This document shows positions 11,431-26,400 of a DNA stretch of 64,000 nt, piece after piece. The DNA comes from Agelas oroides (Eukaryota > Porifera > Demospongiae > Agelasida > Agelasidae). The translations under genes were made by a program, and so were the position numbers. The first letter of the stretch is position 1. The number at the start of each line of letters is the position of its first letter. The stretch is from assembly GCA_949130485.1 (NCBI GenBank), contig OX422204.1:4092015-4156014 (forward strand). The letters are read 5' to 3'. A model generated the notes under the pieces. It had not been told where the DNA came from. It saw only the letters and a program-made list of their open reading frames with translations, and searched no databases.

Positions 11431-14400
11431 GTTAGACTACTTCACCAAGTTGAACATAGTGCCAACACCCTATCCCCTCCTGATAGTTCTAGTGACAGTC
11501 ACCCTCTGTGGAGTTTTCAGCAGAACATCTTCAGATGAGGTAACTATAATAGCATGCGGCCAGACGACAGAAGAAGACTTGCTGTGATATGTATGTACAC
11601 ATGTTTAAAAAAGATGCTGTATTTCGTAAACCATTTCGGATCCACTACTGCACCACAAAAGTAGCTATGGAATGCATTAACAGACCAAATATGAATGTCC
11701 AGCCTGTTCATTAAAAGTACATGCACTGCGTACGTTACGTACAAGGCCTTCTGCATCATCAACAAAAACCTTCTACTGCTTCAGATATACATTTGCTTCG
11801 CAAAAAGGCTTTTCAGTTTGTGAGAAAACATCGCCAAAAATATACTCTGGAAAGGATTCTGAACAACAGCATCATTTAATATGCATATCATAATTATACT
11901 GAACAACGGGAGTCGAACTGCGCACTCACAAAAAGTACTGTTAATCTAAAGAATTTTTTCATACACGTGCACAACAATAGCACTTTTAATGAATGAACAT
12001 TCTCATGAGTTTGTTGACACTGCTTCCTAGTTCTGCATTGAATTGAATTGAAAGAATTTCTATCCAGACAAGGAAAGGGTTACACAGAGGTAGTTCTATA
12101 GTAGTGCTCCCCTACACAAAAACACTTAAGTTACAGTAGACCAGACAAAAATACGTACAGCAAACAAACAGGTAGACCAGTACTGTATAAAACATACAAA
12201 ATCTAGAAATACTAACCTACAAAAGACATACGTATTTTACTAGCTAAAGATGGTGATACAGCCACCTCATAAAACAAGGGTAGGATTTACAATTGAGAAC
12301 ATCAAGGGGAATTCTATTCCATAAATAGGGAGCATTTATAAAGAACGAATACCTAAAACTGTTTACACGAGACAAAGGACACACATGAGAGCTGGTGAGA
12401 CCTAGCTAGTACAATTTGTGTTAAAAGTAAATAACAATTAAAAGGAATGCAATCTAAGATATGGACAATTTTATAAACTTGACACAAGGATAACATTCTT
12501 CTACTTTCTAGCGTTTTAAGTTTGAGGTGTTTGCATGCCTCTTCATATGTGTTTGACCAGGTGTATGTGTGGCGGTCCCACCGGCAGCATGCCCAACGTG
12601 CAGCCCATTTTATCACAATCCTTCTTCAGGTGTGGGTTCCATACTAGTCTCGAACCCAGACCCCCCTTCAACCCTCCAAGAGGAAAGGGGGGTCTGATGA
12701 ATATAGTGCAACATTTTTGTACCTCTGGCGGAATTTCGGCTGATGTGGCAATTATCTCACCTGTATTCCTTACCACAAACCACTTAGCTTTACTCATCAC
12801 ACTTTTACAGACCTACTTAGCACACTCCAATTTGCTGAAGCCCAGCAAGCAACTTCTTAGCTTTTAGCAGAATCCATAGCAACAGCTACAACTGATTTCA
12901 CCTCACTTGGAATATAGCACTACGGAAAAAGTGGAAAAAGTGACTGCAAAATCAAAACAGCTACTTAGTTAGTAACCGCAAGCACGTGACGTGCCAGTTA
13001 CGGGTCGAGTTACAAGCTGTGCTAGATTGATGGTCGTCGTTTGTGATGGGCGAGCCGGGACGCACAAGGGTCTACCATGAGGACCTAAGGTGGCGCATTG
13101 TGTGGCAGCGTTTAGCAAATGGTCGGACTATCCAAGGAAACAGTCAAGTGTCTGTGCGTGGCCAAATCTACAGTTTGGAGAATAGTCGATAGATTTGAGT
13201 GGACTGGCAGGGTTGCTCCAAACCAAGCAACTCCTCGAACTCACCGACTCCATGAGCACGATGAACTTGTTTTGATTGAACTTGTGTGTGAAAATCCTTT
13301 ACCTTCGAGAGGTTCAGAGGGTATTGCTAGAAACCACTGAAACAGCTGCAAGTGCTGCCACTATATGTAGAACACTGAAGAGACTGGGATTTACTAGAAA
13401 AAAGATGAAGTACGTTGCTCTACAAAGGTGTGACACCTTGAGAGCAGAATACCAAGCAGAAGTGTCTACATATGACAGCAGTATGCTTGTCTTCATTGAT
13501 GAATCCGGATGTGATCGAAAGGATGCAATGAGAAGATTTGGTTACTCACTTCGTGGTTATCCATCTAAGAGTACCAAACTTTTGTCAAGGGGAAAACGAT
13601 TTTCAGCTATTGGAGTCATGACCACAACTGCTTTGTTAGATGCATATGTGGTTGAAGGAACAGTTGATGGAGATGCAATTTGTGCAATCATCTCTCTTGC
13701 CTCAACTAATGCCATTTAATGGCACTAACCATAACTCTGTTGTTATCCTCGACAACTGTTCCATCCACCACTTGCAAGATATTCTAGATCTCATCCATAG
13801 TGTGGGTGCTCTTGTGGTGTTTCTCCCTCCCTACTCCCCAGACCTCATGCCCATTGAGGAGTGTTTTAATAAAGTTAAACTCTTCCTGAAAGAACATGAG
13901 GCTGCAATCCAAGCTACTGATGATATCATAATGCTTATAAGAGCAGCATTTGCATCCATAACTTCCAAGGACTGCATTGCTTGGAGTACAGACTGTGGCT
14001 ATTATTAGAAATCGATCTTTGTGCTGGTTTATAAACATGATGTCAGATCACAGCATGCAACACCACCCTGTCATCTTTTGTTATCCCCATATAATTCAGA
14101 AGTATCTTGTTCATCAATTGGCCCAGAGAATATTTAGTGTGTGGGAGGAGAGAAAAGTAGGTATATACCTCTCTTCTCATTCTCAGGCCTCCCAAATACA
14201 GTCTGCTTGCATGTGCAACCAAAGCATAGAAACAAGGGAGGCCTGGGAATGTGCTATTCTTTATATTATACATGTTTAGGTAGGGGGGTCTCAGATCATG
14301 TTTCCGGAAACAGTGTGTGGGAGACTATTGTCTGGGGTACACTATATTCCTCTGCTAAAATGAGGCTACCTATAGCTCTCCTTCCACACAGCTAACAAGC

Positions 14401-17400
14401 TACAGTTATTTCCAGGAGTTTTTTTTGCAGGTTTCTTGAAGCAAGTGCAAGGTATGACTTGAGTGACCACAAGCTTGTGTAGCTATGGTGACAGGTTTTA
14501 CCCCCTAGACAATCTGTGGTACAAGTCACACCTATTGCTTGAAAACCTCCTTGCTATATGCAACCTGTAAGCTACTGTACCTATCTGTGATAAGGATGGA
14601 AAAGTTCTGTAAATCAACATCAGTTTCAACAATATGGGAGGGTACAATGCTAAATGAAAAACAATCCAACACTGGTTAGCACACCAAATGCCCTACAGCT
14701 TCTGCATTTTGTCCAAAATGTTACCTTTCTGCTCTTCATACTCTTCTTTAGTAATAGCTGTAAGTTCAAGTAGTTGGTGGAGTTGCTGCAACTGACTAAT
14801 GTATTGTGATCGCAGTGTTACACACTTCCCAGGCGACACACCCATTTCATTGAGTGATGGACATGGTGACGAGGTACGAGTAGGAGAATTACTGGAAGAT
14901 GTAGGTTGTACAGGTGATTTTAAAGCTCACATGAATCCTTCAGCAACACCAGCCAAAGCTTCAGTAAGACGGTTCTGTAGAAGTTTACACTATTTCCATA
15001 TTTGTCCCTTTAATAAAGGGAAAATATAGTGTCCCCCCCACACTAAATTTTCCCTTTATACAAGGGAAAAAATAGTGTCCCCCCCACACTAAATGATTCG
15101 GCACATTTCCCTCACTATTAAAGGAAAAAATAGTGTCCCCCCCACACTAAATTTTCCCTTGAAAAAAATAGTGTCCCCCCCCACACTAAAAGATTCAATG
15201 CATTTCTATCACCAATTCTTGCATCTCTATTCCGTCTCCTTGTTTGTTAGCCTAATACAAAATTCATATGAAATATTGATTTTAATGGTACATGCAAGCA
15301 AGTTCACTAGATGTTTGTGTGCTATACAGTCTAATGTTTACAGTTTTTACAGCTCCATGGCTCTCTCTTTCTTGAAAAAACTGCTTTGGGGATATTCACA
15401 CACGACTGGTGGAACCAATCTCTACATTCTAGGCACTGAGCCATCTTTGCTGATCGTTCTTCTGGCATTCGGCAGACACAGAAGACATTGATACGAAATG
15501 AAGCCCTAACTATGCCACTTGGCCTCTGAGATTTCTTAGGAAATGGCTTCATCACTTGCTTCTCCAGACATGCTTGAAGGTGTGACCGGAGCCGATTGTG
15601 CTGCCATGTGATACTAGTAGGGTCATTGCCAGCACAAAGTTCATACGCAGTTGCTAATGCATGAAGACCACAATCGTCACCATTAATCTGAAGATCAACG
15701 TCCATCACTTCGAACACAAGCTCAGCTTCCTGGCAGCGCATAATGGCAGCTACTTGGATCTTGATGTCAGCTGGAATGGCCCCCTTTATGCTGTCATAAA
15801 CACGAACTGTGCTGGAAGGACAGTGTTTGTTACTGACTGTCAGCCAATGGCTCTTTCCAACATGAAGGATCTGCACAAACTCCCCGTGCACCGGCTTCCA
15901 TGATGTTTCTTTTGAAATTGTGTCTTGTAACCCCTTCTCATTCGCAAACTTCTCTCTCAGGAGGTTCTGAGCAGCATTGATCAGTGAGCCATTCAGCCAC
16001 TTGCCTGATGCAAGTCTATTCCTGTCGTCTTCAGTTAGACAAAGTCTTCTAACCCACATTAGCTCTCCTTTCTTGGATGGACGGTCATACTTTTCTGTGT
16101 CGATAGCATTCTCCTTGTTGTCCCCTTGTTCTTTCAATCCCTGAAGAGTGATAAAGCCACGCTAGCTGTCTTGTTCAAGTTTGTAGCAACATCCCAGGTT
16201 TCCTGTGATAACATGCAGTGGTTATCAATGTTAATCGACATACCTTTCTACTCAGCTGGGTTTCAGAATCTGACCGGATCTTATGACTGCCCTGCTTTTC
16301 CACCTTGGCACCTGTTTATGGATGCATGTGAAATATGTAAGTCAATGTTTTGGATGAACTTTACAGTGATGAGTGTTCAATTTACTCTACTCACTTGTGT
16401 ACCTCTTTAACTTTAGTGCAAGTATATATTTGTTGTATGTTTTGCCCTTAAAAAATGTACCTTCCAAATGTCGCCTCTTATCTGGGGGGCCTTCACCGTC
16501 ATCCTCTTCACGAGCTCTTCGCTTCGCCCGTGCCTTGTTGGCTGTTTGTGTCCTCTTCTTGCGAGATGTTGGTGAGAGGCTCTCGTATGACACTGTAATA
16601 CCCTTGGTGTGAGCAATGTGCCTAAGTGCTGCGGCCATGTCCGTCTTGTAAGTTGCCATCATGGCAACCTCTAAGGAATCTTGAGATGGTCCCTTTGAGA
16701 GTCGGTTGTAAGCTTCAACTGCGTTGGTGGAGGTTGGCAGCTTGTTGAACTGCTCTACTGTCATCGCAGCACATGCAGCACATAGCATCTCTGAAGCAAA
16801 AGAAAGATATTAGTAGTCATGTACTGCAGCCTGTGCTAGGTGTATGAAAACATAGTATGCACAAATGTTGCACACTTACTCAGGTGCTTCTCCCGCAACC
16901 ACCATTGGGTCCAGCCATGGCAAACTCCCCAGTTGGAGGGTTTGTGCTCTGGGATGTAACTTGTGACAGCCTTACAACCAGGCAGAATTTCCACAGCTTT
17001 TTCCAATGGCAGCTGGCCTCCAAGCACTCCAAAAAGGGCTGCTACATCTTCTGCACTGGTGCACTTTGGAATAGCATAAGCTATTGAGGTAAAGGCTTTG
17101 TAACCATTCTTGGAAGATTTGTTGGCCCGATCAGCCACCCTTTTCACAGATCTTTGAAAATGGACCTATGTGTTAAACAAAGTAAGAAGATTACACAACA
17201 TACTGCAGACTGTAAGTACGTATGTTGAACAAAGGGCATTGTGTACATGCGTGAACAGGTTTTCTGGCTGAACTCATTACACAAACATTCTCACCTGGCA
17301 CCCTTTGACAACTTTGGCAGCCTTCTCTTTGGATGTGGCTTCTTCAATCCCTCGCAACTGGGTGTCTGACCAGTCTGTTAAAATGCCCTGCAGGGTCTTC

Positions 17401-20400
17401 CCAACTTCAAACTCTGGGTGGTCACTCTTTACAGCAGAAAAAGTTGCTTTGAATGCCTCTCGGTATGCCTCAGCTGTGAGCTTGTTCATTCTCACTCGTG
17501 CCACTATCATCCCTAAATGACAGAAACAAATATATTAATTATGCACATAGTATGCCATGTACGTAGGTGGATAAAGCAATTGATGTTGAGTTGCTCACAT
17601 TCCATTGTGGTGTAGTTAAATGTTACAACATTCATCAGGTACTCAAGGACAGACGCAGCATTGTAGGTGACATCTGCTTCAATAAATTCTGATTCCATGA
17701 ACACTTGGGACTGCAAGGGGCTCATTGTGAGAACCCATGTTAGAGATGGGGACAGAGCATAGTCTCTCCTGTAGGGATGGCCTAGAGTTTGATATTCAGC
17801 CAAATGTGGTCGATCACCAGTTGCTTTCGCTTGCTCTGCATCATGTTGCTTTGTCGCCTTCTCTAAACCCAAAATGCAAGCCTCTGCAGGAAGCCCGTGA
17901 GTTTTTTCTCGCAAAGCAGCAAGGCGAAGGTTCTGAACCTTTCCTTTATGGGTGGCAGCTAGTGAGGCTGCTCCAGGCATGTAACCCATCCCTTTTCCTA
18001 CACCAATAAAAACAAAACAACAACAAAGTGAACAGAATGCATGCCTAGCTGCATAAATTTGAGTCTTCAATAGTTACTGCAAGATACCACCAACTTTTTA
18101 GGTAATTTACTTGCATACATACCTTCAAGTATGTCTTTTGTCTTCAGACCAGGGTTCTTGATCACAGCTTTCTGGATATCACTCTTCACCTTCTCGGGGA
18201 TCTTGGCTGCAGCATGGAGGGGGTGGTTGTGGAGATACTGACCCTTCATGTCAGAACAACGATCAATGCCAGTTATCCACCGCCTGTTGTCTGCTTCCTT
18301 TTCAGGGCGAATGTAGATGAATTCTACAGGACAGCCTGTACTTCGTGCGAGTGGCTGGCCTTTGTGCTGTTGACAGGGTTTGATCTCCCATGTGGGAACC
18401 ACATGGTCGCAACCCTCTGCTGGACACATCTTAACTCCATTGCAAGGAACTATTTTGTATGTCACCCTCTCTTACCCCCCATCTACATCCAATTCAATTG
18501 TCCGATTTCCTCGGGCCTTTCCTTTTCCAATTTGAATGTCCTTATACATGAAATTGGGATCAGTGGCAACGTAGTTGGGGAGGATAGTGATATCTTCACA
18601 ATATCCCGTTCGTTTTGGGTGATCGTGTGAAAAGACACCAGGAAAGTGGTAGTCTTCAGGACGCTGGATAGGGTACCAGTTTTCCTTTGACTGCATGAGC
18701 TTTTTGACCGTAGGCAAAGCATGAGTACCTTTGCTTTCCCTTGTAGATTTCATGACAGCAGACTCGAGATCTTCCAGAGGCTTTGAGGTCTGGGAAGTTT
18801 TGCACTGTGTGAGAGCTGGGAGGCGAACAGCATGTGGGTTTTCAAGGAGTTCTTCTCCCTTTTCCGTCACTGTCAGGGTGTTGATAACAATGGAGCCAGC
18901 AACCTGCTCCCCACCACCCAATGACATTGACCTCATTAGGTAGCCAAGGAGCCATGCAGCACGAATCAGAAGTCGCCATGTTTCAAGTGAGTGGGACATA
19001 TGCCTGCCACAACCAAATGTGTTGTCTGTCTCACAACACACTGTGTTGGCACGATAGCAACCCTTGATCCACTCTGCAATCTGGGTAGGAAGGTATACTA
19101 GTTATAATATCCTTAACTCCTTGCACAAAAGTGGGTGTGTATTGTGTATACCATAGGTTCCCGCATAAGTTCCTGAGGGGGGGGGGGGGCGTATTTTCGG
19201 GAGCTTACGGTATCTGATTTTGAGATTGAGAATTTCAGAAATGCTCACCTTCTTTTCACCTTTGTTGCTTAGAGACTGTACACCTCGAACAACTGCTTGC
19301 ATCTCCTCCCGCATGTCTTTTTCTTCTGTAGTTGCAGCACATACATCACAGCAGTGTCCTGTACACACTAGGTCACTGGTATCCTGGTTGAAGTACTCCA
19401 GAAGTACTTGGCGACGACATTTTCCCGCAATGTGGGCTAGCACAAACCTATATGTGGTTACACATATCCACATATCATCAATGTGAATACACACAGTGCA
19501 TGTTTTAGTTAGACTACAAGGTATATAATATATGCATGTAACATACCTCCAAGATACTTGAAAGGCTTGAAGAATGTCTGGTGCTCGTGACCTTGAGTCT
19601 CCCACCCAGTAAGTAGCATGTTGAATGTCTGACTCCTGGTAGAACACAATTGCTGGAGAAAGAGAGGCATAGTCACATGGTATGTCTAGTTCAATTGTTA
19701 ACATTGATATAAGCCAACAAACTGAATGTATGGTACAAGTATAGATGGCTGCAAATACCTGTTGCTTGTCTCCCATCCCGGCCAGCTCTTCCTAACTCTT
19801 GGGACCAGTCTTCAAGGGATGGAGGGCATCCAATCCTCACCACCATATCCACATCTGGTTGGTCAATCCCCATTCCAAAGGCTTTGGTGCACACCATGGC
19901 ATGGATTACACCACTTCTCCAACTACTGACAAGCTTGCTTTTGTCACTAGCTGTGAGCTTCTTCCCATGGAATGCTGCACTTTTGATGCCTTTCTCTTGA
20001 AGTGCAATTGCTACAGGGGCAACATCTTTGACAAAGTCCATGTACACAATGGCCTTCTTTCCCTCAACTGCTTCAGCCACTTTGGTTGCAACTTGACTGT
20101 GCCATGATATACCTGCATTGGGATGCTTGTAATATATAGATGTTTTTGTGCTTCTAGTACCAAACTAACTGACAAGGTATGTACACACGTCATAATGAGT
20201 TTTCACGGGGGCGTGGCTCAATCCGGACAGGTAAGAGATACAAGAAGCTTCTACCATCTCAAAAAGACTATCTATCAATTACCCTCCAAAAGTAGTTGAC
20301 CCTGCCTATTGGTAAACCATCTATATGTATGTACGTACATACCTGTACTCTTGGAAATTTGGAGGTTTCGCACTTCCAGGTAGATGTTTGGCCTGTCCAT

Positions 20401-23400
20401 GGAGCCTAAAATGGTAGTAGCATCTGGCTTCAGGAGATCTTCAAGAATCTTCATTTGAACTGTGGGGGTTGCTGTTGCTGTGAGTGCAATGACTGGGCAC
20501 CCTGGGAAGAACCGATGGACTTTCTGCACGTACAAATACTGCATCCTGAAATTTCAGAACACCTTGATTACAACATAACTTTATAGACCATGATCGTGAA
20601 TAACTCTGATCTTAGCCAATTAAACATACCTGAATGAATTCCAGCTCCATACAAGATGTGCTTCATCAACGGCGACTAACCCAATTCTTCTCTCTTTGGT
20701 AAGTTTGGCGAAGGGATTTTGCAGCTCACCACCAGTGTTGAAGAGACGCTCAGGTGTCACATACACCACATCACAATCTCCTTGATATACCCGATCTACA
20801 GCCAAGAAGTCTTTCTGAGCCGACCCAAGGAATGTTGTGCGGATCCCCTTGGCAGACAAGCTCAAGGATTGGTCAGCCATCAAACTGATAGTTGGGGTCA
20901 CCACGAGGGTCATTTTGTGGGTGACAAGGGGAGGAAATTGGTAGCTCAGGCTTTTCCCACTGCCAGTGGGTTGCACAACCATGACATCCTTCTTCTGCAA
21001 AATGGATTGGATTGCTTCTAGCTGCCAAGGTTTGAATCTGTGTAGCTGGAAATTTCGTGCCAAAACTCCAACCAGCTCAGTGTTTTGCTTTTCTGAAAAG
21101 TTATGGAGAATATTATGTTCAACATACATGACTAGCAGTATTGATGCCCATGCTTTTAAAGTGGGAGCACTCCTTTAATGATGTGGGTCATACTCAAGCT
21201 CTACACATCAAACATATTTCTACCGTTTTCTCCACTGCATGTACTCTCATACCTGTCTGAGAGCTGGTGATCTCCTCCTCATCTTCTGTATCAAAATCTT
21301 CCAACCTCCTCACAGAATGATACGCTCTGCTCTTGTGGCCATGGTGAATGTTAGAACAGCCTCTGCAGTAGTTGTTTCTGCACTCCATGCAGTATACATC
21401 TGCTGGTTTCATGCACTGTTCACATGCTGTCAAAAAAAGGTGCCACAATGTTTGATTGCTGTGAGAAAGTTATTATAATGCTTGGTACTAGCATAACTAA
21501 TCCTGAATTCGATGTCACATCTTACCTTTTCCAGTGAAGCTGCACTGAGAAAAACCTTCCAAACTTTGATCTGAATCATCCATTTTCTTCCACTGACATT
21601 GAGAACAGCTACTAGCTTCAACAAGTGACTCACAAGTGAAAGAATATGAAGTGTCAAATTTTTGCCACCACTTCATGGGACAGGAAACAATTAATGGTTT
21701 TATGCAAAATTAGTGTGGGGGGGAACACTATTTTTCCCCTTATTAAAGGGAAAATTTAGTGTGGGGGACACTATTTTTTCCCTTGTATAAAGGGAAAATT
21801 TAGTGTGGGGGGGACACTATCCCTTGTATAAAGGGAAAATTTAGTGTGGGGGGGACACTATTTTTTCCCTTAATAGTGAGGGAAATGTGCCGAATCATTT
21901 AGTGTGGGGGGGACACTATTTTTTCCCTTGTATAAAGGGAAAATTTAGTGTGGGGGGGACACTATTTTTTCCCTTTATTAAAGGGAAAAATATGGAAATA
22001 GTGTACATTTATATTATGCCCAGTAAGACTTGTTCCTGAATTCTTTGGTGACTTGGAATTAAATCCAAACATGGGCACTTTGGGAGGTTCATCACAATCC
22101 TTGTGTGTACCAACCTGAATCGTATTAGCCCATAGCCTAAGCTGCGCTGCTGTGTAGGTGGAACCATGTTTGTCTTGTAAATCAGCATAAATTTCGTCAA
22201 CCTCATCTCGAATGACCTGGCGTTTTGAGGGAGGCTTAGACGAAGCATCATCAGTTTTGCGCTTCTTGCCACTGGCACTAATACATTCTGTATCATTTTG
22301 CTCTTATTCCTGACACCACAAGCCAATTTCATGGTCATAGTCAGTGCTATGGGCATTATACATACATTTCAGGTCTTTGCCACTTTAATCCATACTTTAG
22401 CTGAACCTCGTCCTTTGTAATAGCCCACCTCAAAAGTATCCGGAACGGAATTTCCTAATTCAGCTGAAATGTACTGCTTCAAGTCCCCTGGTGTTAGAAA
22501 TTTGCCAGAACATTGAAACTTTTCTACAACAAACTGAGATTTTTTCTTGGGGTTTATGATTTTTAGGCTATACGTATACTGACGCCTTGAGCATTCAACA
22601 TTCCCTGTAGACGGTCCACTAGGAGGTGTAGAAAGTTCTGGACCAGGGTAGGTAAGGTATAACTCACCGCTACAAGCGCTAGGGAGTGTAGGTGGGTAAA
22701 AGTTGTAGTAGGGAGGGTAGTTCCATGCCATCCTGTCGTGACTCTCGAGCACAAAACCGCTGTCAGTCACCAACGTTCAACCAGACAAAACACAGCTTTA
22801 ATAGTCACATCACGAGGCGTTCGCACGCGCGCCCTTGCACCTCACGTGCTTGCGGTTTCTAACTAAGTGGCTGTTTTGATTTTTCGGACGTTTTCGGAAG
22901 TGCTAAATTCCAAGTGAGGTGAAATCAGTTGTAGCCCATGGTGTGAGGCTGTACTATATTCACCAGACCCTCCTTTCCTCTTTGGATGAGGGTCTGGGTA
23001 TGAGACTAGTTCCATACAGATGAGCAATACTCAAGATGTGGACGTACCAAGGCGACATACGCTCTCTTTTTCGATTCCTTACAACAACCATACATGGGCC
23101 TTCTCAAGAGGCTGAGAATGTGATTTGCCTTGGCAGCAGCACTGGTAACGTGATCTGACCAGCATAACTTGCGTGTGATGTTCACCCCAAGGTACGAGAT
23201 TGAATCGACCCACTCAAGCGTTGCTGCACTGAGGTGGTAAGTGTAGATTGGAGGGATTTGCTTGTTAGAGAGGGCCTTGCACTTGGATAGGTTCAGATGG
23301 AGTTTCCATTTGCATGTCCACTGGTAGAGTTCATGGAGGTCTGACTGGAGGACCTCACAGTCCTCTCGGCCTGCTATTTCCCTGAAAATGCCGTCATTAT

Positions 23401-26400
23401 TCTAATAGAACGGTAGATCCAATCTAGCGGAAGAAATTCAATTCTTGGAATTTTTGTTAATCCAATATATGCAGAAGGCAGCTGGACTAATTGTTTTGAT
23501 TTTCGAGTGAATCCAATTTAGTGGAAGAGTAGGTACCATGAAGCCTTCTCAGCAAAACAAAATAGAAAAGTCATGGGCAGAACGAGTCTGTTAGTGCACC
23601 AGGAAGCGTTCTTATCAAAACAATACTCACTGGCAGAGGCATTGTAGTGTACCGCCCAGACTGTGTTCTTATCAAAACACGTACGGACAATGGTTGCTGG
23701 CTGACGAAGAGATGCTCAGACGATCGAAGTTCCCGGAGCCTATACACTTCTGAGAAAGACTAAGGTGATTTAGTACTGCAAGCACTACTCCTGTGGTGAA
23801 GAAGCTTCCGTGCATGGCTAGTGCTTTTCTTGGAAAATGTGCTTCCATTACAGCGGTAGATCTAATCCAGCGGAAGAAATTGGCCTTTTATGAATCTAAT
23901 CTAACGGAACCCATATTTTAAATTATTTAATTTCCTACCGTTGTATTAGAATAATGACGGTAGTGCAGTCATCAGCAGTAAGCCTGATTTGTGACTTGAG
24001 ATTGGCACCAATGTCATTAACGTGAAGCAGAACAGCAAGGGCCCAAGGATGGACCCTTGTGGAACACCGGATGAGACTGGGGACAGCAACTGGGTTTGGC
24101 ATGAGTGTCCGCTCCTGAAACCGTGCTGATATGGGTTGAGTTTGTTGTACTCATTGAGGAAGTTCATGATCTTCCCATGCACCAAACGTTCCATGATCTT
24201 CACCACAATGCTGGTAAGGCTTACAGGTCTATAGTTCTTGGGATCGCCTGACTATGCCATCATAAACATTTAGGAGGGAGGATGAGGCATGGGAAAGGGA
24301 TGAGGTGGAGGGGCTGTCACTGGTGGTGCTAACGTTTCCAAACGGAAGGTCTGACGCTATGCAGGCATGACATAACCACTCCTCGGTGTCACCAAGTGCA
24401 GTATGGAGCTTGTGACTAATACTACAACAGCCGGTGTGGCTCCAATTTTCGCACCTGTCACATAGAATAGCTCAATCGTTCTGTTTCACAGCATTACAGC
24501 ACCATGTGCATGAGAACTTCACAGGTCCGGGATTGCTTTCGACATCTCCAGAGAGCAGTATCAACCATTAATTGATAGTACGGTAGACGACGGTACCGGT
24601 AGCTCTCTTGGTCAGAGGTGCGAACATCCTCTCCAGGTGGCAACGGTGACAGTTAGGCAGCTTCCACTTGACAAAAGTTGTTTGGGGACAAACAGTAGTT
24701 GCCCAGGGAGAATCTGGTTTTCACACTCATCGCAGGAAGCGCAGGCAGCCCGATAAACCGCAAGTAACAACCACAAACACGGGAGCGTAACATTCCATCT
24801 GCTCGCCATATTGAGGTCTATGGAGACGGGGCAAGGTCCGAGACCACCATGTAAGCATTGCATTGCTATATGGCTGCTTCTTTGGCATGCAAACAAAATA
24901 ATTGCCAGGCTTTGTAGTGGTATCTGTCGTTTAGCGCCACCCACGCAAACATGCTGCTAAGCCCACAATGAAGCAACAGCTGGGTGGCTGGTAGCAGGTC
25001 TATACAAACTTTGTACATGAGGTTTCATTCAACTCGATGCTGTCAGCAGGGTGTATGGAAAACCCAGAACGCCGGAATGGCCAGAACAGCCGGAACAAAT
25101 GGAAATTAGGAGCTTGAAGTGGCAATATAGGAGTTGGGTGCACACGCCTTGAGACCGTAAACTTGCCTATTATCGCCACGTTTCTCACCACAGCATACAT
25201 AGGGTCAGCGCGCTGCAATTTATTTACTCCGGTATAGCATTTAGGAGAAAGTCCCAGCCTTGCCGCATACAGCTGTGTCAGCCTCGATGGCTCGGCTCCA
25301 CCCTCCGTGCAGTAGGATGGCTCAAGTTCAACGTGTACACATTGGCAATATGTGAAATATTTCCCCATTATTGTCACTGACAAACAAGTTGCTTTTAAAT
25401 ACTTTACAACACTAAAAAAGGAAACTGTTGGAAGAAACAAGGTGCAAAAACCTTAGAAACTCACACTACACGCTGACACATCTGATTTTGAGAAATCATT
25501 GTTGGGGCAGGGCAGTGTCTGCAGATCACAGCACATGGGTCATGCATGTATCTAGCAGAACAATTCAGATATTGGATTTTGGCCTTTGACAGTAAGTGGC
25601 AAAATTTTAATTTTGCAACGTTTCAACAGCACTTCGGCTATCTTTAAGTTGTTTATGCCTGATGAAGATAGTCAATGTACTGTCGAAATTAAAGTTTACC
25701 ACTTATCGTCAAAGGCCAAGATCCAGTGTTTCAATTATCTAGCACTGTGTTAGCTTGACTAATTGTCAGAATGTATTGCCATGACGTGGACAATTTCTCT
25801 TGTCTTGGCAGTTAGTAGGGCTGACTAGTATTGCACAGGCTAAGTCTGGCCTCTTGCCACTTAGCCTGTCTGTAACGCTGTGGAACTGCAAATTCCAGTA
25901 ATACTTCATTCATCCAACTCAGGAAGAGTTCTGAATCCACCCAGCCCAATTCACTCTTGGCATAAACTGCGTCATCTGGGCCCTTAAAGGTATAAGCACC
26001 ACCAGGAAAGGCCTTAGGGTAGATGATCATGGGGGGGAGTGTGATTCCGGCAGCAGAAGCACCACACAACAAGGTAATGTGCTCTGAGGTTCCGTGAGCT
26101 TGGGCGTATGCATACTTAGCCTTCTTCAAAGTGACAGCCTTTTCCCTCATACCATCAAGAAGGAGGAAGGTCTCATCACAATTATAAAGGCGGCGTGGAG
26201 AATTTATAAGACAGTTCTCCTCAAGTGTCTTCTTCGACAACGACCTCCAGGTCCGAGTACTCTGCTCTACTGCGGTCAAGTCGATCAACCTTTCTCAGTG
26301 TTAACTCTGGGTGGCGTTTACGGAAGCCAGTCCACCAATGTTCCCCTGGACCCAGTTCAGGGTTGAAATGACTACCTTTGCCAGAGCGCAAGGCAATTGC

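Follow-up and report, generated by a model that had tools for sequence, protein, structure and literature searches.

A low-copy transposon of Agelas oroides, probably AcademH-like, whose single gene joins a RecQ helicase, a DDE transposase and a ULP1-PHD tail

Most cut-and-paste transposons rely on helicases and repair of their host. Among the families that bear on the present locus, Mutator and Mutator-like elements (MULEs) combine a DDE transposase core containing a CxxH motif with 9-bp target-site duplications (TSDs) and long terminal inverted repeats (TIRs), Kolobok elements duplicate TTAA, and AcademH is said to have been introduced by Kojima in 2020 in a report whose title describes Academ DNA transposons encoding a helicase in animals and fungi. 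According to the passages available from the respective publications, Academ carries a RecQ helicase (PMC3627910), the TSD of AcademH measures 9 or 10 bp (PMC10045372), KolobokH of fungi encodes a RecQ helicase beside a DDD/E transposase (PMC9587614), and fungal fusion proteins with helicase domains have been traced to AcademH, KolobokH or Helitron (PMC10799480). Similar excerpts place Ulp1 on Mutator elements of hydra, lancelet and plants and at the C-terminus of Ginger1, with Ulp1 plus PHD in Ginger1-9_HM and a figure in which these two domains are aligned between Ginger1 and Mutator transposases (PMC2836005); they also mention accessory enzymes for some Zisupton/KDZ elements, TET/JBP in fungi, and an 8-bp TSD for Zisupton (PMC12730594). 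Here a 64,000-nt stretch of Agelas oroides OX422204.1 (the window, to which all coordinates refer unless stated otherwise) was analysed together with searches of the 259-Mb genome in 141 contigs. It harbors a low-copy cut-and-paste transposon in which one gene would encode one polypeptide, most likely (probability roughly 0.7) an AcademH-like element with a ULP1-PHD tail. This filing is chosen because AcademH is the known lineage that combines RecQ with duplications of 9-10 bp, and the element agrees with it in its RecQ-type helicase and its 9-bp TSD.

The transposon extends over 7,050 bp on the minus strand (14971-22020) with GG...CC termini and is flanked by identical 9-bp copies of CAGTAAGAC at 14962-14970 and 22021-22029, 9-bp duplications having been mentioned in an earlier note on this DNA. 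Its TIR arms of 190 nt (14978-15167 and 21824-22013, 95% complementarity) lie within terminal repeat regions built from short palindromic units in array (14971-15190 on the left and 21710-22020 on the right). A near-identical copy, C15, is found at another genomic place with its own TSD, ATTTGATCA, and three diverged elements likewise possess 9-bp duplications, namely C2 (GTGAGAGAG), C4a (TGTGAGCAC) and C4b (TTACCTGGG, read from its flanking sequence). The TSD is 9 bp long in five of the six elements with both ends located, five different 9-mers being involved, and its length is ambiguous (8 or 9 bp) in the sixth, C8a.

Inside the element a spliced gene was modelled on the minus strand (15331-21676), with GT donors and AG acceptors at all splice sites and consistent phases throughout. 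Its 14 exons comprise 1,572 codons, which specify in this order a B-box, a RecQ helicase with zinc and RQC domains, a second zinc domain, a DDE transposase, a ULP1/SENP protease and a PHD finger. The earlier note had proposed a single spliced model with matching phases, 13 exons and about 1,560 residues; the single model and the phases hold, as do the exact coordinates of the two exons at the helicase-transposase junction (19249-19447 and 18123-19080), while exon number and length had to be corrected. Its reading of exon 8 as continuous fails, since an in-frame TAA at 18472-18474 (codon 753) interrupts the frame between the helicase and the transposase core. Because of this stop the window copy cannot make the whole protein and is broken; an unbroken reading exists in the relative C4b. 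One stop in 1,572 codons compares with about 74 expected in random codons, and the alignment to C4b scores 2,982, as against 60 for a shuffled protein and 46 for the wrong strand (one control each).

All 14 exons are present in C15, where the stop is absent and the exon lengths match those of the window except for the lost end of exon 11. The two copies differ at 31 positions, with nonsynonymous and synonymous divergences (dN and dS) of 0.0041 and 0.0158, and a dN lower than dS would be compatible with selection on the protein, the sample being small. The remaining copies inspected are either partial or carry internal deletions, and transposase matches in the genome number 108. The small number of copies, a dN that stays under dS in the comparison with C15 and the presence of chromatin and SUMO domains might suggest a domesticated host gene rather than a mobile element, a reading of almost vanishing probability that is ruled out at this locus by the inverted repeats, the exact 9-bp duplications at five places and the existence of broken, partial and internally deleted copies. 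Two further loci were encountered in the course of these comparisons. At L042 (556-1786) a short, internally deleted copy carries repeat sequence at both ends, one of them apparently truncated, and is likely a non-autonomous derivative; at L077 (C3:11194000-11203400) related inverted repeats lie far apart with no fusion-protein match between them, perhaps representing a different element family with similar ends.

The fusion recurs in diverged copies between 9-bp duplications, as the earlier note had proposed to look for. C2 (L076), C4a (L078) and C4b (L079, L026 and L080) align to the full domain order, the amino acid identity of C2 and C4a to the window protein ranging from 28 to 64% by stretch. 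C2 covers residues 52-1571 with one stop, C4a covers residues 45-1520 with one frameshift and part of the helicase lost, and C4b covers residues 52-1509 as 1,456 amino acids with neither stops nor frameshifts. Intron places and phases are largely common to the window and its relatives (10/13, 9/12 and 10/12 for C2, C4a and C4b, respectively). A more distant relative, L081 (C1, L081:1784-6319, minus strand), contains RecQ and transposase in a single frame without introns, 1,511 amino acids long, in which DEAD and Helicase_C exceed the Pfam cut-offs, B-box and RecQ zinc domain remain below them, and the N-terminus is ubiquitin-like (Pfam ubiquitin, 31.4 bits); the C-terminus, in place of ULP1-PHD, is what we take to be a Tudor-like region.

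Public assemblies contain further examples. With L081 as query 17 proteins were retrieved, the precomputed annotation showing a helicase domain in 16, and a transposase profile retrieved 45 (weakest match 1.6e-29), 25 of which carry PF00270 or PF00271. Among the 49 distinct proteins the helicase is included wholly or in part in 29, and one open reading frame (ORF) extends from it to the first catalytic aspartate in 18 and as far as the catalytic glutamate in eight; P0001, at 93% identity to L081, does not constitute an independent case. That helicase and transposase are instead two adjacent genes of one transposon, the fused protein being an artefact of exon joining, would be favoured by the stop at codon 753 between the two halves in the window copy, by the 20 of 49 database proteins that begin downstream of the helicase and by the derivation of the gene model from genomic sequence. 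These 20 proteins, in which no more than 69 residues at the N-terminus stay unaligned, look like fragments, the stop is missing from C15 and C4b, and a phase 0 intron at residue 550, at the junction, is present in all three diverged relatives. Single intronless ORFs containing both halves largely refute the two-gene arrangement, which is accordingly very improbable. A RecQ-transposase fusion that is real, encoded by a single gene and old is supported by this comparison of sequences. The pattern named in the earlier note as refuting, with helicase, transposase and protease always separate, was looked for among the relatives and not seen, because the diverged elements keep the fusion and the intronless ORFs join helicase and transposase.

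The helicase carries the RecQ zinc domain, as had been claimed. Its core and RecQ zinc domain (residues 110-520, 19339-21090, introns inside) match DEAD (1.3e-22), Helicase_C (5.6e-17) and, barely above the cut-off, RecQ_Zn_bind (25.8 bits vs 25) in Pfam, and the RQC winged-helix domain (residues 524-638, 18817-19329), which spans the exon 7/8 junction, reaches 23.6 bits of 23. Sequence comparison with the PDB groups the helicase with RECQ1 (1.6e-59), bacterial RecQ, WRN and BLM, and all features of the RecQ family are present, i.e. the superfamily 2 motor, Walker A, DEAH, the RecQ zinc domain and RQC. By eye, an aromatic-rich loop behind DEAH (residues 251-266, exon 3-4 junction) seems shorter than in canonical RecQ, in the relatives as well, which may change the coupling of ATP use to DNA. 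The finger preceding the helicase (residues 50-92, 21302-21529, intron inside) is B-box-like in that matches are found as proposed, both of them below the Pfam cut-offs (ANCHR-like_BBOX 25.6 bits of 27, zf-B_box 23.4 of 24.1).

Between RecQ and transposase, where the earlier note had placed a zinc finger, a Cys/His zinc-binding domain is found (residues 755-840, 18211-18468), the cysteine and HxH columns of which are conserved in 17 or 18 of the 18 sequences aligned; presumably it is of the FLYWCH/WRKY-GCM-like type. The DDE core (residues 960-1230, 16612-17728) comprises Asp978, Asp1049, Cys1074-x-x-His1077 and Glu1196, all kept among the aligned relatives, and for the L081 transposase an RNase-H-like fold is predicted whose nearest structure is ISCth4, which we take to be an IS256/Mutator-type transposase. 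The catalytic residues and the CxxH of the proposed Mutator-like transposase are in place; the MULE label itself finds no support from Pfam. The Pfam MULE family PF10551 gave no match in the window protein halves or in P0001, P0002, P0004, P0007, P0010 and P0013 (E up to 0.1), nor in the L081 ORF or the C4b piece (E up to 1). It is absent from the precomputed Pfam annotation of the database relatives found with L081 and the transposase profile, and none of the 119 genomic PF10551 places listed (150 of 194 candidates scored) falls inside the window's element.

These results bear on whether the element is a true Mutator-clade transposon, apart from Academ, that acquired RecQ independently and carries a ULP1-PHD tail like those of Mutator and Ginger1. 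The 9-bp duplications, the repeats of hundreds of bp, the CxxH between the second aspartate and the glutamate and the ranking of ISCth4 are as expected for such an element, and Ulp1 on Mutator elements is published in the parts of PMC2836005 available. Transposase_mut appears below threshold in two (E 0.074 and 0.014) of the 12 scanned proteins or pieces, and a profile alignment with two MULE sequences of this genome is in register but weak (P 0.004, probability 8%). The missing PF10551 matches, the closeness in Z score of the hAT transposase Hermes (9.6), P (9.2) and many retroviral integrases (8-9) behind ISCth4, and the pairing of a helicase with 9-10-bp duplications in AcademH, as described in the passages available, speak against such an origin. 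MULE identity of the transposase is plausible but unproven, and an independent Mutator-clade origin of the whole element is considered unlikely, though a good deal less so than the two-gene arrangement.

The C-terminal part of the polypeptide contains a ULP1/SENP-type cysteine protease (residues 1330-1500, 15550-16062) with the full set His1401, Asp1419, Gln1454 and Cys1460 in the order claimed for it and kept across the aligned relatives. Pfam ULP1/C48 was not matched in the window protein (E up to 0.1); Peptidase_C48 lies below cut-off in C2 (19.9 bits of 20.7) and C4b (14.9 bits), as does the YopJ acetyltransferase family in C2 (21.0 bits of 24.4). For the last exon, the fold predicted by the best of five models (mean predicted local distance difference test score 64.9, the other four 35.9-46.5) matches SENP5 (8.5e-8, best), SENP1 and Ulp1. 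Support at the sequence level is weaker, a profile matching SENP1 with 2.7e-4. The PHD finger at the very end (residues 1521-1572, 15334-15489) is confirmed over the Pfam cut-off (32.4 bits of 24, 9.3e-8) and by a match to PHF2 (1e-9 with profile A3).

The terminal repeats themselves were compared using 10 repeats of five elements from four families, window and C15 being near-identical. Folded as single DNA strands, all 10 repeats give z values of -8.9 to -15.6 over their first 300 nt (window element, -8.9 left and -14.0 right), as against -1.4 to +1.8 for 10 internal stretches from the same elements. Perfect hairpins with 6-bp arms number 4-12 per 320 nt of repeat (6 and 12 in the left and right repeat of the window element) vs internal means of 0.56-1.19 (16 windows per element). 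The sequence of the repeat units varies between families, and the palindromic plan is kept. RecQ helicases unwind hairpin-type structures, and it is plausible that the hairpin-rich inverted repeats, a new observation here, serve as substrate of the built-in RecQ.

A mechanism can be envisaged in which the zinc domain and the DDE core would bind the repeats, cut them and insert the element with a 9-bp stagger; the duplication is seen directly. The tethered 3'-5' RecQ motor would melt the repeat hairpins or branched excision and insertion DNA and so let synapsis, fill-in and repair proceed, ULP1 might strip SUMO or a similar tag off repair or chromatin proteins, and PHD could tether the complex to chromatin. 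A bolder version, possible but rather doubtful, is that this is the first known lineage welding RecQ, DDE transposase, SUMO-type protease and PHD, with a helicase co-evolved with the hairpin-array repeats that it must melt for cutting, copying or repair, and a transposase in a superfamily of its own, placed between Mutator/IS256 and hAT/P.

Several points weigh against the AcademH-like assignment and the functions ascribed to it. The filing rests on traits described for Academ and AcademH, and a search of the genome for XPG_I gave only three matches and no AcademX for comparison. Pfam transposase families yielded no match above cut-off, and the AlphaFold models of both the L081 transposase and the protease are of middling confidence. 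L081 shows no ULP1 or PHD match in Pfam and no inverted repeats within the 6.5 kb examined, the PHD match in C2 is weak (14.0 bits of 24), and the alignments of C4a and C4b stop short of PHD. The richest internal windows contain four hairpins in the window element and three in C4b, so that the count for C4b, with four per repeat, is barely above background and weak; the arrays may instead serve protein binding. The gene model is a prediction from the genomic sequence, and the roles of helicase, protease and PHD, including those suggested in the earlier note, are ones that we infer.

Further features were noted around the element. Close by, at 13276-14008 (plus strand), lies a frame-broken Tc1/IS630-like transposase (Pfam DDE_3, with 1.6e-15 for its second piece). 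On the minus strand, a LINE-like reverse transcriptase piece (23006-23401, RVT_1 below threshold) is followed nearby by a PHD-bearing ORF (24229-24471, 24.4 bits of 24) and by a DDE_1 fragment below threshold (25815-26294, E 0.0007), which we take to be Pogo/Tigger-like. The open frames 21962-22303 and 22369-22776 (minus strand) beside the insertion site have no Pfam match.

Compared with the described systems, the element is closest to AcademH, with which it shares the transposon-borne helicase, of RecQ type in Academ, and TSDs in the range of 9-10 bp, in a group distributed among animals and fungi; the ULP1-PHD tail and the single polypeptide go unmentioned in the available parts of its published descriptions, by which the comparison was made. 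KolobokH, as far as its excerpted account goes, likewise encodes a RecQ helicase together with a DDD/E transposase, but there the helicase lies downstream of the transposase and the distribution is fungal only, whereas here it lies upstream, and five different 9-mers are found instead of TTAA. Mutator elements and MULEs agree in the Ulp1 domain reported in the passages available, the DDE core with CxxH, the 9-bp TSD and the long TIRs, and differ in that the window element lacks a Pfam MULE match; the word 'helicase' occurs nowhere in the main text of two published MULE surveys. Ginger1 shares the C-terminal Ulp1, with PHD in Ginger1-9_HM, yet has a Gypsy-integrase-like transposase of another superfamily and no helicase mentioned in the portion of the source available, and Zisupton/KDZ, also DNA transposons with accessory enzymes in some members, differ in the 8-bp TSD of Zisupton and in that RecQ goes unmentioned in the corresponding excerpt. 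The earlier note had known of no described RecQ-MULE fusion; a fusion of this very kind was not found among the matches listed in a literature search, while RecQ-bearing elements of this sort are on record as Academ, AcademH and KolobokH. As helicase-carrying transposons are already known, the element represents an unusual variant and no new class. Since helicase and transposase reside in one conserved chain, also in public assemblies, whether a RecQ motor of its own is needed for transposition becomes directly testable, the hairpin-array ends being a candidate substrate, and the variation of the end modules across the family (ULP1-PHD in this element, a ubiquitin-like N-terminus in L081) would point to transposons handling ubiquitin or SUMO signals of the host. 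What is known, therefore, is the RecQ-bearing transposon as such; what would be new is the union of all modules in one chain, the ULP1-PHD tail and the hairpin-array ends.

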